Origin: Bordetella genomosp. 1
Lineage (GTDB): Bacteria > Pseudomonadota > Gammaproteobacteria > Burkholderiales > Burkholderiaceae_B
Assembly: GCF_002261335.1 (NCBI RefSeq)
Contig: NZ_NEVL01000003.1
Location: 248,001 to 312,000 of the forward strand
DNA length: 64,000 nucleotides
Direction: 5' to 3'
Each line of letters starts with the position of its first letter. Positions within the stretch are counted from its first letter, which is position 1. Both the position numbers and the translations under genes were made by a program. Of the stretch, positions 58,819 to 64,000 are shown piece by piece. The notes under the pieces are model-generated. The model was not told where the DNA came from and searched no databases. It saw nothing but the letters and a program-made list of their open reading frames with translations.

Positions 58819-60009
58819 ATGATCATCAAACCCCGCGTGCGCGGCTTTATCTGTGTGACCACCCATCCGACCGGCTGCGCCGCCAACGTGCGCGAACAGG
58901 TCGAATATGTGAAGGCCCAGGGCCCCATTGCGAACGGCCCCAAGAAGGTGCTGATCATCGGCGCGTCCACCGGCTACGGCTTGGCCGCCCGCATCACCGC
59001 CGCCTTCGGCAGCGGCGCCGCCACGCTGGGCGTGTTCTTCGAGCGTCCGGGCGACGACAAGAAGCCGGGCACCGCGGGCTGGTACAACACCGCCGCGTTC
59101 CATGACGTGGCCGAGGCCGAAGGCCTGTATGCCCGCAGCATCAACGGCGACGCCTTCTCCGACGAGATCAAGGCCCAGACCATCGACGCGATCAAGGCCG
59201 ACCTCGGCAAGGTCGACCTGGTCATCTACAGCCTGGCCGCACCGCGCCGCACCCACCCGAAGACCGGCGTGGTCTACAACTCCACGCTCAAGCCCATCGG
59301 CAAAGAGCTGAAGATGCGCGGCCTGGACACGGACAAGGAAGTCATCAAGGAAACGGTCTTGCCGCCCGCTACGCAGCAGGAAATCGACGACACCGTCGCT
59401 GTGATGGGCGGCGAAGACTGGCAGATGTGGATCGACGCGCTGGCCGACGCCGGCGTGCTGGCCCCGGGCGCCAAGACCACGGCGTTCACCTACCTCGGCG
59501 ACACCATCACCCAGGACATCTACTGGAACGGCACCATCGGCGCCGCCAAGAAAGACCTGGACAAGAAGGTGCTGGACATCCGCGCCAAGCTGGCCGCAAC
59601 CGGCGGTGACGCCCGCGTCTCCGTGCTCAAGGCCGTCGTGACGCAGGCCAGCTCCGCCATCCCGGTGATGCCGCTGTACCTGTCGCTGCTCTTCAAGATC
59701 ATGAAAGAGAAGGGCACCCACGAAGGCTGCATCGAACAGCTCTACCACCTGTTCCAGGACGGTCTCTACACCGACAAGCCCCTGCAGGATGACGTCGGCC
59801 GACTGCGCGCCGACCTCAAGGAAATGGACCCCGACGTCCAGGCCAAGGTCACCGCCCTCTGGAACCAGGTCCAGGACGACAACATCTACGAACTCACCGA
59901 CTTCGCCGGCTACAAGGCAGAGTTCCTGCGCCTCTTCGGCTTCGGCATCGACGGCGTGGACTACGATGCCGACGTCAACCCCGACGTCCAGATCCGCAAC
60001 CTCGGCTGA
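58819..60009 (+). CDS. fabV: Enoyl-ACP reductase FabV
   Basis: A 396-residue NADH-dependent enoyl-acyl-carrier-protein reductase of the FabV type, catalysing the last step of each fatty-acid elongation round. Landmarks: [20 protein letters not shown] at the start, nucleotide-binding [14 protein letters not shown] (about 49-62), and the catalytic Tyr-X8-Lys with Tyr235 and Lys244 ([10 protein letters not shown]), exactly the positions known for the Burkholderia enzyme. FabV enzymes are naturally tolerant to triclosan. Length is standard. A strong terminator follows. Confidence 0.96.
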
Positions 60010-60030
60010 CCCCCGCGTCCGCTGAAACAA

Positions 60031-60058
60031 AAAACCGGGCCAAGCGCCCGGTTTTTTT
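60031..60058 (+). terminator. Rho-independent terminator after fabV
   Basis: AAAACCGGGC (60031-60040), five-base loop, GCCCGGTTTT (60046-60055) continuing in a run of seven Ts. A textbook terminator 22 bases after the fabV stop. Confidence 0.92.
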
Positions 60059-60107
60059 ATTTGCCCCGTCGACACCGCCGTCCCCAAAACGGCGCCAGCT
60101 CAACAAT

Positions 60108-60385
60108 GGTGTCAGACTACATTTATCGACGCCACGCTCCCATCCAAAAAGGAGTCAGACTGCATTTTTCGGTATCCCCGGTTCCGCAGAAAAGGAGTCA
60201 GACTGCATTTATCTGTGCGGCAATCAGCGCCGAAAAGGTGTCAGACTGCATTTATCGAGACGCCTACCCCTTCCAAAAAGGTGTCAGACTGCATTTTTCC
60301 GGCGCCCGTCGCACCCAGCAAAAGGTGTCAGACTGAATTTATCAGTGCCCGGCGCCCTTGAAAATTGAGTCAGACTGCATTTATC
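60108..60385 (+). repeat. Seven-copy array of a 20-bp repeat with 43-bp period
   Basis: Copies of GGTGTCAGACTGCATTTATC start at 60108, 60151, 60194, 60237, 60280, 60324 and 60366, i.e. every 43, 43, 43, 43, 44 and 42 bases. Variation is limited to a few positions (GGT/GGA at base 3, TTTATC/TTTTTC near the end, single changes in copies 1 and 6). Most copies are preceded by AAAA, so the conserved unit is about 24 bases and the variable part about 19. The variable segments are GC-rich and unrelated to each other. It follows the fabV terminator directly. Further single copies lie at 61618, 63805 (inverted) and 63854. Confidence 0.9.
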
Positions 60386-60693
60386 CGCCAGGCCGCCGTC
60401 AGGCGGCAATGCCGATCCACTTGGCCCGATAGCCGTCCATTTCAAATCGCGCGTCACAGCCGTTGCCGCGCCCGACGCGTAGTCCTGTCCAACATCGACG
60501 CGAGAGAAGCCGCGGTCCGCGCCGCCGTGTGGGCCCCGCGCACGACCGGCTTCGTTGCGCGGGAAGCGCACTTGGGGCAGGTCGCCGTAAGTTGCGTCAG
60601 TTCGTCGGGGGCCGCCACCGCGTCCGAGGTACTGAGGTCGCCGCCCAACGGTAAGATTCAGTTTTGCTTCGCTTTCAATCCAGGCAGGCTGAA
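60386..60693. other. Spacer between the repeat array and the LysR gene
   Basis: About 300 bases with no gene that can be supported. Short frames exist on the minus strand but run into the repeats and have no family features or ribosome-binding site. A LysR-type gene often has a divergent target here, but none is visible, so the target may have been lost or lies elsewhere. Confidence 0.45.
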
Positions 60694-61602
60694 ATGACCG
60701 ATACCGCCGACATCCGTTTCCTGCTTTCCATCAAGTCCGGCGGCAGCCTGCTCGCCGCAGCGCGCACGCTGGGCGTGACGCCGTCGGCGGTATCACAGCG
60801 TCTGCAGCAGCTCGAGGCACGCGTCGGCGCTCGGCTGGTCGACCGCAGCGCCCGGCGACTGCGGTTCACCGAGGCGGGCGAGATGCTTTGCCGGCGTGGC
60901 GAATCGCTCGTGCGCCAGCTCGATGAACTGCTGCAGGACGTCCACGGCGACCAGTCTGGTCTGGTGGGCCGGCTGAACATCTGCGCGCCGCTGGGCTTTG
61001 GCAGGCGCTACATCGCGCCGCTGGCCGCAGATTTCCAACGCCTGAATCCCCGCGTCGATATCGCGCTCACGCTGTCCGACGAGCCGCTCAGCGCCACCGC
61101 CGGCCGCTTCGACGTCATCGTGCACATCGGCCAGCTGCCGGCCTCCAACCTGATCGGCCACGCCATTGCCCCCAACGCCCGCCTGCTCGTGGCGGCGCCG
61201 GAACTCTTGCGCCGCCACGGCACGCCGCAGACGCCGGAAGACCTCGCCAATCTGCCTTGCATCGTCTTGCGCGAGAACAACGAGGACGTGTCGCTCTGGT
61301 CGTTCACGAAGGGCCGTACCACGCGCAGCGTGCGCGTCAACGCCGCCTTGAGCTGCAACGATGGCGATGTGATCTGGCAATGGGCGGTCGAGGGACGCGG
61401 CGTCATCCTGCGTTCGGAGTGGGACGTCGCCGACGATCTGCGGGCAGGGCGACTGCAACGCCTGTTGCCGGCATGGAAGGCCCCGGACGCAAACGTCGTC
61501 GCGCTCACGCACGACCGCGCGGGGCTGCCGCGGCGCACCCGCGATTTCATGCAGCACCTCCAGGCAGGATTCAAAGGCGCGGTGCCCTGGCGCGTCGCGT
61601 GA
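60694..61602 (+). CDS. LysR-family transcriptional regulator
   Basis: A 302-residue LysR regulator. The winged-helix N-terminus is ADIRFLLSIKSGGSLLAAARTLGVTPSAVSQRLQQLEARVGARLVDR (about 5-51), followed by a co-inducer domain (about 88-295) with GLVGRLNICAPLGFGRRYIAPL. ATG 60694 gives a short N-terminus close to the helix-turn-helix, as is usual for the family; an upstream TTG in frame is less likely. No adjacent target gene is evident. A single copy of the 20-bp repeat lies 16 bases after its stop codon. Confidence 0.9.
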   Translation: MTDTADIRFLLSIKSGGSLLAAARTLGVTPSAVSQRLQQLEARVGARLVDRSARRLRFTEAGEMLCRRGESLVRQLDELLQDVHGDQSGLVGRLNICAPLGFGRRYIAPLAADFQRLNPRVDIALTLSDEPLSATAGRFDVIVHIGQLPASNLIGHAIAPNARLLVAAPELLRRHGTPQTPEDLANLPCIVLRENNEDVSLWSFTKGRTTRSVRVNAALSCNDGDVIWQWAVEGRGVILRSEWDVADDLRAGRLQRLLPAWKAPDANVVALTHDRAGLPRRTRDFMQHLQAGFKGAVPWRVA

Positions 61603-61617
61603 GGCCTCCCCCGGGGA

Positions 61618-61636
61618 GGAGTCAGACTGCATTTAC
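61618..61636 (+). repeat. Isolated copy of the 20-bp repeat
   Basis: GGAGTCAGACTGCATTTA, same orientation as the array at 60108-60385, located 15 bases past the lysR stop codon. The last bases (CGC instead of TC) diverge. Confidence 0.85.
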
Positions 61637-61850
61637 GCGCCGGGCGATGGCTCGGGGCGGCTGGCGCTTGCAACGGTCCGCCGGGATAACCCCGGCCCTC
61701 ACTTTGCGCGTCGACCCGCGGATCAAGCCCAGCCGGACCGCAGTATGCCCGGCGCCACCCCTCCGGTGGCAAGCAGTAACTGCGGAGCTTGGCAATTGCA
61801 ATGCGATTTGCGAGTGCACTCGATGATCCAATTTCGACCTAGCTTTCTGC

Positions 61851-61883
61851 TTGACACCAAACCGACCAACTAGTAGATTGGCT
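61851..61883 (+). promoter_or_regulatory. tetR promoter with overlapping operator
   Basis: A perfect -35 TTGACA (61851-61856), a 17-base spacer and TAGATT (61874-61879) as -10. The spacer and -10 overlap ACCGACCAACTAGTAGATTGG (from 61861). The core ACCGAYCAACTAGT recurs at 62584-62597 before the next gene. Overlap of promoter and site fits autorepression by the TetR protein. The start codon is about 70 bases downstream. Confidence 0.65.
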
Positions 61884-61954
61884 GCCATGTCGACCCCCGA
61901 CTCGGTCCGAGTGCAGAGAACCCGGACGAGCGAAGCAGAAAACTGGATTTACCC

Positions 61955-62539
61955 ATGAGCTTGGATCTTTCCCCCAGAGCACTCGAAATCGTCGAGCAGA
62001 CGAAGCTGCTGCTGGCCGCCGGCGGATATCACGGCTTTAGCTACGCCGACATTTCCGAACGCGTGCGAATTGGAAAGCCCAGCATCCACCACCATTTCCC
62101 GACCAAGGCAGATTTGGTATTGACGGTTGTCGCCCAGCATCGCGCGCAGGCACGGGCAGGCTTGTCGGCATTGGATGGCCATGTGCCGAATCCGCTGGAC
62201 CGTTTGACGGCGTATACCGATTATTGGGCGAAATGCATCGGCGAGGGCACAATGCCGATGTGTATTTGCGCAATGTTGGCCGCTGAGCTCCCCATGATTC
62301 CACAGGCAATCGCCGACGAGGTGCGCGCTTATTTTGGCGAGCTGAACGCGTGGATCGCCGGGGTGCTGGAGAAGGGCAGTGCCGCCGGGCAGTTTCGTCT
62401 GCGCGACACGGCCGACGTGGAGGCGCAGGCATTCATGTCGTCGGTGCATGGCGCGATGCTCACGGCGCGCGCCTATGGCGACCCGAAGGTTTTCGCAACC
62501 ATTTCTCGGGCAGCGATCGGGCAACTGACCACAGCTTGA
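61955..62539 (+). CDS. TetR-family transcriptional regulator
   Basis: A 194-residue TetR regulator. The N-terminal helix-turn-helix is GYHGFSYADISERVRIGKPSIHHHFPTKADLV (about 24-55) and the C-terminal ligand domain (about 75-190) is of the type found beside redox or efflux genes (CICAMLAAELPMIPQAIADEVRAYF). The cysteine pair MCICAM could sense thiols or electrophiles (inference). Lower GC than the surrounding genes suggests recent acquisition. Its operator-like site recurs before the membrane-protein gene downstream, its probable target. Confidence 0.9.
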   Translation: MSLDLSPRALEIVEQTKLLLAAGGYHGFSYADISERVRIGKPSIHHHFPTKADLVLTVVAQHRAQARAGLSALDGHVPNPLDRLTAYTDYWAKCIGEGTMPMCICAMLAAELPMIPQAIADEVRAYFGELNAWIAGVLEKGSAAGQFRLRDTADVEAQAFMSSVHGAMLTARAYGDPKVFATISRAAIGQLTTA

Positions 62540-62582
62540 TGTCTTAGGCGCGCCTCGTGGGCGCGCATATTTTTCGATTCTC

Positions 62583-62605
62583 AACCGATCAACTAGTTGG
62601 TTGTC
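62583..62605. promoter_or_regulatory. Second TetR operator, before the membrane-protein gene
   Basis: AACCGATCAACTAGTTGGTTGTC; the core CAACTAGTTG (62590-62599) is a perfect 10-base palindrome. ACCGAYCAACTAGT is shared with the site over the tetR promoter. It lies 63 bases before the next start codon and 44 bases after the tetR stop, indicating a separately regulated transcript. Confidence 0.65.
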
Positions 62606-62667
62606 AGTGGCTGGTCAAAGCGTGTTTTCGCCAGTGCCCGACACCCTCGACCCTGCAGGAGTTTTCC

Positions 62668-63177
62668 ATGCCTCATCCCATTTCAGCGCTCGGCGCGGCG
62701 CACACCATCGTCAGCCTCATCCCCGCTGTGGTCGGCGCATACAGTTTCGCCCGCTACCGCGGCATCGATACCGCCACGCTGGCGGGAAAAATATATCTGG
62801 GCGGCTTGATCGCGGCCGTTCTCACATCGTTTGGTTTATCGAGCTCAGGCGGGTTCAACGCGGGGCATGCGCTGGGCATTCTGGCCTTGATCTCGGTATT
62901 CGGCGCGCTGGTCATAATGCGAATGCGGGCGTTCTCGCGTTCGCAGGTGTATCTCGCCCAACTGGGATTTTCGTTCAGCTTCTTCCTGATGTGGGTGCCC
63001 GGCATCGCGGAAACGCTGACTCGCCTGCCGCTTGCACATCCCCTGGCCGACGGGCCCCAGGCGCCGCTGGTACGCGGCGCACTCACGGTGTGGTTGGGCC
63101 TGTTCTTGATTGGCGCAATCGCACAGCAATTTTGGCTGCGGTCGCAGCGTCGCATCCGCATCGAAGCAAACCGCTGA
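62668..63177 (+). CDS. Small four-helix membrane protein, unknown function
   Basis: A 169-residue protein with about four hydrophobic segments (about 5-22, 40-57, 65-83 and 100-115, plus a final one near 140-158) and a basic C-terminus (RSQRRIRIEANR). No family was recognised with certainty. AGGAG lies nine bases upstream of the ATG. It carries a TetR operator-like site in its leader and is therefore the likely target of the TetR protein at 61955. Lower GC than the core genes. A role in resistance or transport is possible but not shown. Confidence 0.7.
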   Translation: MPHPISALGAAHTIVSLIPAVVGAYSFARYRGIDTATLAGKIYLGGLIAAVLTSFGLSSSGGFNAGHALGILALISVFGALVIMRMRAFSRSQVYLAQLGFSFSFFLMWVPGIAETLTRLPLAHPLADGPQAPLVRGALTVWLGLFLIGAIAQQFWLRSQRRIRIEANR

Positions 63178-63231
63178 GCCACCCGAGCACCGGTATTCCC
63201 CCTCGATGCGAAATTCAATCTGGAGAGCCTT

Positions 63232-63819
63232 GTGAATACGAGCAGTGTGGAGGCGATTGGAAGACCACGGATCGACACCCTCCAGAATTTCTATCTGGAA
63301 GAGCGCGTGCGTGCGCAGATGCGCGCGGAACGTCGTGAGTACGCGCACGTCGCGGCACGCATGGGTGCGGAGGCCACAGAAGCTGCATGCGTGGCAATGC
63401 CGTTCACAGCACAATCGCAGGCGGGCGAGGGTGCAGGGCCTTCGGTGGACGCGCTGCGAAATGACTTTGCCGCGCACTGTCTGCAACGCGCCATACAGGC
63501 TTTCCATGAACAGCTGGCGCGTCTCGATGCGCGGGCGGCGGAAGTCGACCATGCGGCGCGAGACGAGCAGTCGCTGCTCCAGGCCCGCGCCGCTGCGGCC
63601 CAAGACCTCGGCACCATCGAAGGCCTGTCGCCACTCCAGCCTTACCGGTCCGCGGCAGTTTGGCCTATGCTTTCCACGCCGGCGCCGGAGGCCGTTTTCG
63701 GAAGCGGCGCGTTGCGGGTAACAGCGGTCGACGCCTCCGCCTCGCTGCGTGGAAGCACGGACCGCAGCCCGCGCCCCATGACGCCAGTCGTCGCTGAACA
63801 TCGCAAAAATGCAGTCTGA
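63232..63819 (+). CDS. Hypothetical protein ending in the repeat element
   Basis: A 195-codon frame starting at GTG after a TGGAGAG leader, 54 bases downstream of the membrane-protein gene. The N-terminal 135 residues are polar and probably helical (FYLEERVRAQMRAERREYAHVAARMGAEA, then AIQAFHEQLARLDARAAEVDHAARDEQSLLQARAAAAQ, coiled-coil-like). The last 60 residues look low in complexity. The final codons and the TGA stop lie inside an inverted copy of the 20-bp repeat, so the C-terminus may have been truncated or extended by repeat insertion. No family recognised. Confidence 0.45.
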   Translation: MNTSSVEAIGRPRIDTLQNFYLEERVRAQMRAERREYAHVAARMGAEATEAACVAMPFTAQSQAGEGAGPSVDALRNDFAAHCLQRAIQAFHEQLARLDARAAEVDHAARDEQSLLQARAAAAQDLGTIEGLSPLQPYRSAAVWPMLSTPAPEAVFGSGALRVTAVDASASLRGSTDRSPRPMTPVVAEHRKNAV

Positions 63820-63872
63820 CTCCTTTTCCGCGGCGGCGCGGCAGCCGATTTAAGGTGTCAGACTACAATTTC
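63805..63872. repeat. Inverted pair of the 20-bp repeat
   Basis: An inverted copy (63805-63823, reading GGAGTCAGACTGCATTTTT on the minus strand) faces a direct copy (63854-63872, GGTGTCAGACTACAATTTC) across 30 bases. The arms can pair over about 13 bases with two mismatches, giving a REP/BIME-like hairpin. It closes the right side of the accessory segment. Confidence 0.85.
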
Positions 63873-63930
63873 GGGTCGCGGCGAGGCGCGTGTGGCGCAT
63901 CGCGACGGCAGGCCAACTGCGGCGACGGCC

Positions 63931-63970
63931 TACGCCGCACTACGCCGCTGTACGCCGCAGTGCGCGGCAG
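63931..63970. repeat. Short 10-bp tandem repeat
   Basis: TACGCCGCAC, TACGCCGCTG, TACGCCGCAG and a degenerate TGCGCGGCAG in direct succession. The purpose is unclear; the stretch is too close to the window edge to judge context. Nothing else was seen from 63873 to 64000. Confidence 0.6.
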
Positions 63971-64000
63971 CCCGGGACAATCCCATCATCGATGCCAGAG

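Follow-up and report, generated by a model that had tools for sequence, protein, structure and literature searches.

Between fabV and a LysR-type regulator gene of Bordetella genomosp. 1, a regularly spaced repeat array occupies part of the intergenic DNA. It raises the question of what kind of element consists of short, similar units at a near-constant step, separated by segments that do not resemble each other. The window, that is, the whole stretch of 64,000 nucleotides that was analysed, corresponds to C4:248001-312000 of the genome G000 (5.6 Mb, 7 contigs).

The array and its repeat unit

The left neighbour of the array is fabV (Pfam Enoyl_reductase), with its stop at 60009; by eye, a GC hairpin and a T-run are seen after fabV and before the array. 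The features of the window are listed below, with unit starts given as the starts of the 17-mer GGWGTCAGACTGCATTT.

60105..60385, plus strand: array of seven TIR-type units, intergenic, from fabV to the LysR-type regulator gene
60108..60124, plus strand: unit 1 (17-mer core)
60151..60167, plus strand: unit 2 (17-mer core)
60194..60210, plus strand: unit 3 (17-mer core)
60237..60253, plus strand: unit 4 (17-mer core)
60280..60296, plus strand: unit 5 (17-mer core)
60324..60340, plus strand: unit 6 (17-mer core)
60366..60382, plus strand: unit 7 (17-mer core)
61618..61634, plus strand: single unit, 16 bp past the LysR stop, at the left edge of a stretch of about 11 kb that is absent from the related genome G009
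63807..63823, minus strand: single unit that provides the stop codon of the ORF 63232-63819 (...KNAV*)
63854..63870, plus strand: unit in a divergent pair with the minus-strand unit at 63807, centres 43 bp apart

The first-pass annotation had described seven copies with a period of 43, once 44 and once 42, and the same start-to-start steps (43, 43, 43, 43, 44 and 42) were recovered for the seven same-strand (+) units at 60108-60382. The separating segments had been called unrelated, and the six spacers are indeed mutually dissimilar, with a mean identity of 0.44 compared to a between-cluster background of 0.42, while that of the units is 0.92. The three isolated copies placed by the annotation at 61618, 63805 and 63854 are all present, the second of them at 63807 and on the minus strand, and the lower-GC segment mentioned along with them has a GC content of 0.59-0.64 (four 500-bp bins, 61500-63499) compared with 0.71 in the window overall. 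With at most three mismatches allowed, a 20-mer of the unit has 10 matches in the window, compared to 0 in 100 dinucleotide shuffles.

The repeat unit is about 24 bp long, AAAGGWGTCAGACTGCATTTWTC, and its consensus, derived from the 112 units that two contiguous 400-kb blocks contain when up to three mismatches are tolerated, reads AAAGG[T/A]GTCAGACT[G/A]CA[T/A]TT[T/A][T/C]C, with little information past a few flanking bases. The core, AGTCAGACT, is near-palindromic, in the form of an odd palindrome. Nonetheless, no stable hairpin was found in the four unit strands that were folded (z 1.05, 1.00, -1.19 and 0.22 against shuffles), and a GTAG or CGTC tag is absent from the consensus. The unit contains GGTGTCAG, which differs by one base from the motif GGGGWSAS of the TIRYTs, so that the match requires one mismatch to be allowed. 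The reverse unit ATGCAGTCTGAC (e.g. 63807-63823, minus strand) agrees in 10 of 12 bases with the Neisseria uptake sequence ATGCCGTCTGAA. A structured RNA was discarded as a candidate, since Rfam gave no match at the gathering score across 59000-64000 and the unit is not stably folded, as was a terminator role of the array, since a scan of 59900-60720 found no terminator or promoter.

A dispersed family in the genome

The unit is not confined to this locus. Allowing one mismatch, the 17-mer core is found 365 times in G000 (194 on the plus and 171 on the minus strand; reversed control, 0), and a shorter core gives 363 matches. These copies also occur singly, in convergent pairs and round a transposase gene, which bears out the earlier description of a dispersed element. 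With regard to its distribution, the unit is present in two of the 15 genomes of the genus, G000 and G009 (31 copies, partly variant), and absent from the other 13 when the 17-mer core is searched with one mismatch allowed. Of the 61 genomes covered by the search of relatives, the other 59 have 0-6 matches each to the shorter core, with 0-4 for the controls.

The annotation had also suggested mapping the copies relative to gene ends. In the two 400-kb blocks, the 112 units fall into only 25 clusters and almost all lie outside predicted genes: two of the 112 (at most three mismatches) are centred within a predicted gene, one of them overlapping the transposase stop codon, and four more in-gene matches have four mismatches each. 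These counts depend on a crude, home-made gene caller, which yields coding fractions of 0.88 and 0.86 in the two blocks. When single four-mismatch matches are left out, 13 of the 15 clusters located between tandem genes are closer to the 3' end of a gene.

Spacing and orientation of the units

The spacing was analysed in a sample of 287 units (279 with at most three mismatches) drawn from the two contiguous 400-kb blocks, both known to hold units and one of them round the window, and from smaller unit-holding loci. Near-palindromic matches on both strands (distance 4, 42 pairs) were resolved to single units before counting. Centre-to-centre distances of 43 or 44 bp account for 118 of the 227 neighbour pairs within 130 bp. 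By orientation, this step is found in 60 of 89 ++ pairs, 41 of 78 -- pairs, 16 of 48 +- pairs and one of 12 -+ pairs; most neighbours in G000 are therefore on the same strand, and 48 of the 227 pairs are convergent. When the sample is restricted to the two 400-kb blocks, a distance of 43/44 bp separates 51 of 87 pairs, compared to 1.6 expected under a uniform distribution. As just four of the 16 convergent pairs in these blocks show the step, the case for its independence of orientation comes chiefly from the chosen loci and the Achromobacter pairs described below.

The first-pass annotation had proposed that a regular step puts the copies on one face of the DNA, as a candidate platform for a multivalent protein. 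The 43/44-bp step, common in same-strand and convergent neighbours when measured from centre to centre, is in line with this idea, whereas the second step of 25/26 bp, at which units abut (26 of 227 pairs), does not amount to full helical turns. Moreover, same-strand steps of 48-49 bp (three cases) are found, beside steps of 24-27 bp, in the few loci of G009 that were read. Strict helical phasing was rejected, given that the 25/26-bp steps do not fit it.

Clusters are mostly inward-facing: among the 39 that contain both strands, 27 are strictly of the form +..+-..-, compared to a mean of 5.4 and a maximum of 14 in 2000 shuffles. Certain convergent pairs are duplicates of each other (C2:27504/27715 and C2:343211/349969, along with C4:524479/524715 in two copies of one cluster). 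Whole clusters are also apparently duplicated at C3:308644/308800 (156 bp), C3:455434/455684 (250 bp) and C2:27458/27669 (211 bp), and such duplications appear to be a second scale of local amplification.

A RAYT-type transposase gene between inverted units

A profile search with Y1_Tnp (PF01797) detected one gene in the genome, at C4:319673, and a protein search located it at C4:319640-320335 (232 aa), 7.6 kb from the end of the window. Its product, a domesticated transposase, matches the NCBIfam family REP_Tyr_transpos (REP-associated tyrosine transposase) with 82.7 bits (cut-off 80) as well as Pfam Y1_Tnp. The Y1 transposase flanked by the unit that the annotation had advised looking for was thus found, with three plus-strand units upstream (left) and four minus-strand units downstream (right), all at the 43/44-bp step. 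Furthermore, the frame of the transposase terminates inside the first downstream unit (...PRKENAV*), like that of the ORF at 63232-63819 in the window (...KNAV*). With inverted copies of the unit on either side of a RAYT-type gene, the suggestion of REP elements with a RAYT was right in kind; the unit itself is of the TIR type and not a hairpin REP.

The residues N60, H61, H63, Y121 and N125 are invariant in an alignment of 22 proteins, comprising the G000 protein together with 21 relatives selected by hand among the 110 loci L040-L149. A C-terminal extension is common to the transposase and its relatives, and no HTH family of Pfam matches the C-terminal part of the transposase. Out of the residues of the GTAG region in the E. 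coli protein that are named in PMC6006769 (W94, Q95, E100, H101 and R104), W94 alone is conserved in the G000 protein, a comparison for which the alignment was read by eye.

A distant RAYT-like paralogue with 30% identity is encoded at C3:207161-207715, and matches with 28-32% identity to the transposase are found in all 14 other genomes of the genus. In 13 loci of this distant type (L057-L069, from the genus and from other genera), no 11-mer occurs more than three times. The C3:207161 type looks like a conserved, repeat-free domesticated relative.

Related transposase loci

The flanks of 36 loci were compared, namely the G000 locus and 35 relatives hand-picked from the 110 that had been fetched. 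Flanking inverted repeats scoring at least 14 are present at 21 of them (the G000 locus and 20 of the 35 relatives), all of which carry a GGGGWSAS-like motif with one mismatch allowed, while one of 720 shuffled flank pairs reaches this score. No inverted repeat at the threshold was found at the other 15 loci, three of which have a sub-threshold GGGGWSAS-like repeat.

The closest named relatives among the matches listed are from two Achromobacter genomes, with a transposase that is 59% identical. Their flanking unit, AAATAAGGTGTCAGACTACGTTTTT, is a version of their own that is found round the transposase and elsewhere, in 35 and 19 copies (controls, 3 and 1). Out of these 54 copies, 28 form 14 convergent pairs, ten of which are at 43 or 44 bp from centre to centre and the other four at 38, 39, 39 and 45 bp. 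In two further genomes, the RAYT-type locus L056 (G040) has three plus and three minus units, with steps of 27 and 46 bp and of 44 and 30 bp, and the RAYT-type locus L042 (G046) has three units at one end. Given L056 and L042, multi-unit transposase ends are not unique to G000. The genome G001 encodes a partial transposase (51% identical) at a contig end and has no units. Conversely, no close transposase copy was found by protein search in G009, with its 31 units; gene and repeats therefore do not track one to one.

Spacers and array growth

Thirty-three same-strand arrays contain at least two lattice spacers each. In 25 of them spacer identity is below 0.55, with a mean of 0.43 compared to 0.42 between clusters, and the units are about 0.94 identical. 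Five arrays, as a group, have spacer identities of 0.58-0.72 and three reach 0.88-0.95. Two of the latter, C1:90253 (0.88) and C4:456494 (0.95), have fully or almost identical spacers in succession and are therefore recent tandem duplications of the period; for the third, C4:524519, the comparison is between the two copies of a cluster that has been duplicated. In the array upstream of the transposase, the spacers are at 0.42 and the units at 1.00. Duplication followed by drift, with the units kept, explains this series. Insertion of units at a fixed distance is also compatible with the 25 low-identity arrays. In the window array the spacers are at background, so tandem duplication is not demonstrable there and units inserted stepwise at a constant distance would fit equally well.

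Neighbouring units share variants above chance at two of three variable sites (0.86 vs 0.75 and 0.78 vs 0.68, both more than 2 sd), with 0.70 vs 0.64, about 1.2 sd, at the third; these figures include the recently duplicated arrays. The sharing at two sites leans towards local descent over global homogenisation. A model in which unit and spacer move between arrays as a cassette was rejected because spacer sharing between clusters is near the column-shuffled null. Pairs matching in at least 13 of 19 bases number 41 of 5209 (null mean 23.5, maximum 36 in 40 shuffles) and those matching in at least 14 of 19 number eight (null mean 4.6, maximum 8 in 40 shuffles), which leaves a small excess that is larger against plain within-spacer shuffles.

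The spacers have a GC content of 0.75, higher than that of the intergenic DNA of the two blocks (0.66 and 0.63), and a weak position-specific composition. In 50 non-redundant spacers of the 43-bp class, G or C occupies position 7 of the 19 (the first being 0) in 48 cases and position 8 in 45; these positions are midway between unit centres, and the spacers are otherwise unrelated. With regard to folding, 71 non-redundant spacers were no better than their shuffles (mean z of 0.02 with RNA and -0.15 with DNA parameters).

History of the locus

Within the genus, a long match to the locus is otherwise found in G009 alone (fabV 86% identical), and the comparison is between one genome per species. 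The gap between fabV and the LysR gene measures 260 bp without units in G009 and 685 bp in G000. In addition, about 11 kb are missing in G009, from after the LysR gene (unit at 61618) to the four units downstream of the transposase. This comparison implies that the array and the transposase segment were either gained in G000 or lost in G009. The segment, 61593-64000 and on to C4:~320486, encodes a TetR regulator, ORFs without assignment and the RAYT-type gene; its window part has a GC content of 0.63. TIR units are found on its two edges and look like its boundaries. Five G009 unit loci were also compared with the sampled parts of G000, and two were matched, one with units in both genomes in different arrangements and the other with units in G009 and none at the G000 counterpart.

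Origin of the array and alternative explanations

The array is probably one cluster of the dispersed TIR family that belongs to a RAYT-type Y1 (HUH) transposase, present in a single copy and of the TIRYT, group 1 or subclass 2.1 kind. The transposase would recognise the unit and spread it, probably via single-stranded DNA by analogy with other Y1 enzymes. Arrays may then lengthen locally by tandem duplication of one 43/44-bp period, made up of a unit and a spacer of about 19 bp, after which spacers would drift while units and step are retained, either because only intact, correctly spaced units are still recognised or because units are re-copied. Counting against this reading, gene and repeats do not track one to one in G001 and G009, 15 of the 36 loci lack an inverted repeat at the threshold, and just four of the 16 convergent pairs in the blocks are at 43/44 bp. 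Conjectural host roles would be a 3'-end or insulating function and a binding platform.

A bolder and rather unlikely version has the arrays as multi-site transposition ends, where RAYT protomers bind cooperatively to near-palindromic units 43/44 bp apart, the complex selects the spacing, and clusters of n plus and m minus units are miniature non-autonomous elements with multi-site ends. No such design for Y1 transposases was met in the passages of the RAYT and TIRYT literature compared. With low probability, the units could instead be operator-like sites of a nucleoid or regulatory protein of the host, whose multivalent binding keeps unit and spacing, with the transposase having its own sites there. 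This would suit the 25 of 33 arrays in which unit cores are kept at about 94% identity and spacers are at chance similarity, a step that is often equal in both orientations when measured between AGTCAGACT centres, and a unit without a stable hairpin. It fits poorly with units that flank the transposase gene in inverted orientation and occur in only two of 15 genomes of the genus, with the differences in arrangement seen at three syntenic places of G000 and G009, and with the 25/26-bp step (26 of 227 pairs), which would present another helical face.

The agreement with ATGCCGTCTGAA, at 10 of 12 bases in a by-eye comparison, could point to a system resembling DNA uptake sequences. This Neisseria sequence has 1,474 canonical copies in one meningococcal genome according to the text of PMC3868556, whereas in the two blocks the 112 units are gathered in 25 clusters, with two in predicted genes. 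In addition, 13 of the 15 genomes of the genus lack the unit, which is linked to a transposase; the likeness is probably a coincidence and the reading very improbable. An equally small probability is given to a plain minisatellite, in which neutral tandem duplication is unconnected with the transposase: two arrays have identical or near-identical successive spacers, yet units remain alike after spacer similarity is gone, and unit and step recur in many separate clusters that usually face inwards. Least probable of all is a CRISPR-like array with acquired spacers, which the first-pass annotation had already discounted. Regular repeats and unrelated spacers recall such an array, but the unit is also found singly, in convergent pairs and round a transposase gene. 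No match to Cas1 was obtained in the G000 genome, with the control matching in nine of 14 genomes; the spacers, which at 19 bp are too short for sensitive BLAST, gave no match to phages and one match to plasmids, at E=1. CRISPR was discarded on the lack of a Cas1 match and the genome-wide dispersal of the unit.

Comparison with known systems

RAYT-like genes with inverted repeats have been described as TIRYTs or TIRtrons with the motif GGGGWSAS, and their TIR families include single, paired and grouped genomic copies (Di Nocera et al. 2013, PMC3733652, main text). G000 shows their features, namely a Y1 gene with HUH and Y---NP motifs, inverted-repeat flanks, the motif with one mismatch and, as in some TIRtrons, a dispersed family. 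As in the TIRtrons of that text, a RAYT-like Y1 gene lies between GGGGWSAS-like inverted repeats belonging to a dispersed repeat family; unlike in its descriptions, G000 has several units per gene end (three and four) and a frequent 43/44-bp step. The family exceeds 360 copies in G000; copy numbers of TIRtron families are given in Figure 9 of PMC3733652. In the text of Quentin et al. 2018 (PMC6006769), TnpA subclass 2.1, the second largest, is matched to RAYT group 1 and probably corresponds to TIRYTs. The G000 gene resembles this group in its Y1 core, HUH and Y---N motifs, C-terminal extension and lack of a gene-adjoining hairpin REP, whereas the extension is described as HTH-like in subclass 2.1 and has no HTH-family match in Pfam in G000. 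No data on TIRYT mobility or binding are reported in the passages compared from PMC3733652 and PMC6006769.

The GTAG or CGTC tag with a hairpin that characterises GTAG-REPs and REPtrons is lacking in the G000 unit. The REPs of Pseudomonas fluorescens SBW25 are GTAG-type hairpin REPs and belong with other RAYT groups. In that strain, REP arrays on a single strand and at even spacings of 71-184 bp have been described, and the G000 family resembles its repeats in having non-autonomous doublets in inverted order as well as tandem arrays of regularly spaced units on one strand (Bertels and Rainey 2011, PMC3116915, main text). In the ordered REPIN clusters described there, the flanks are repeated too, whereas most G000 spacers are unrelated. 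With regard to the doublet layout, convergent pairs comprise 48 of 227 pairs in G000, where most neighbours are on the same strand, and 28 of 54 copies in Achromobacter.

Multi-unit gene ends and an inward-facing 43/44-bp lattice are without description in the passages of the TIRYT and RAYT literature compared, and a literature text search with six unit strings gave, among the matches listed, none on the subject by title. TIRYTs make up a considerable part of the RAYT superfamily, and a genome in which more than 360 well-defined units accompany one such gene, in arrays at various stages of spacer decay, is a naturally favourable system for studying TIRYT target recognition, the multiplication of TIRYT repeats and the survival of intact units on a fixed step after their spacers have diverged. 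The array thus belongs to a mobile-element repeat family of a known kind, as TIRYTs and evenly spaced REP arrays are described in the texts of PMC3733652, PMC6006769 and PMC3116915, and it has an unusual regularity of layout; what is notable is the size of the family together with its inward-facing arrangement at a 43/44-bp step.
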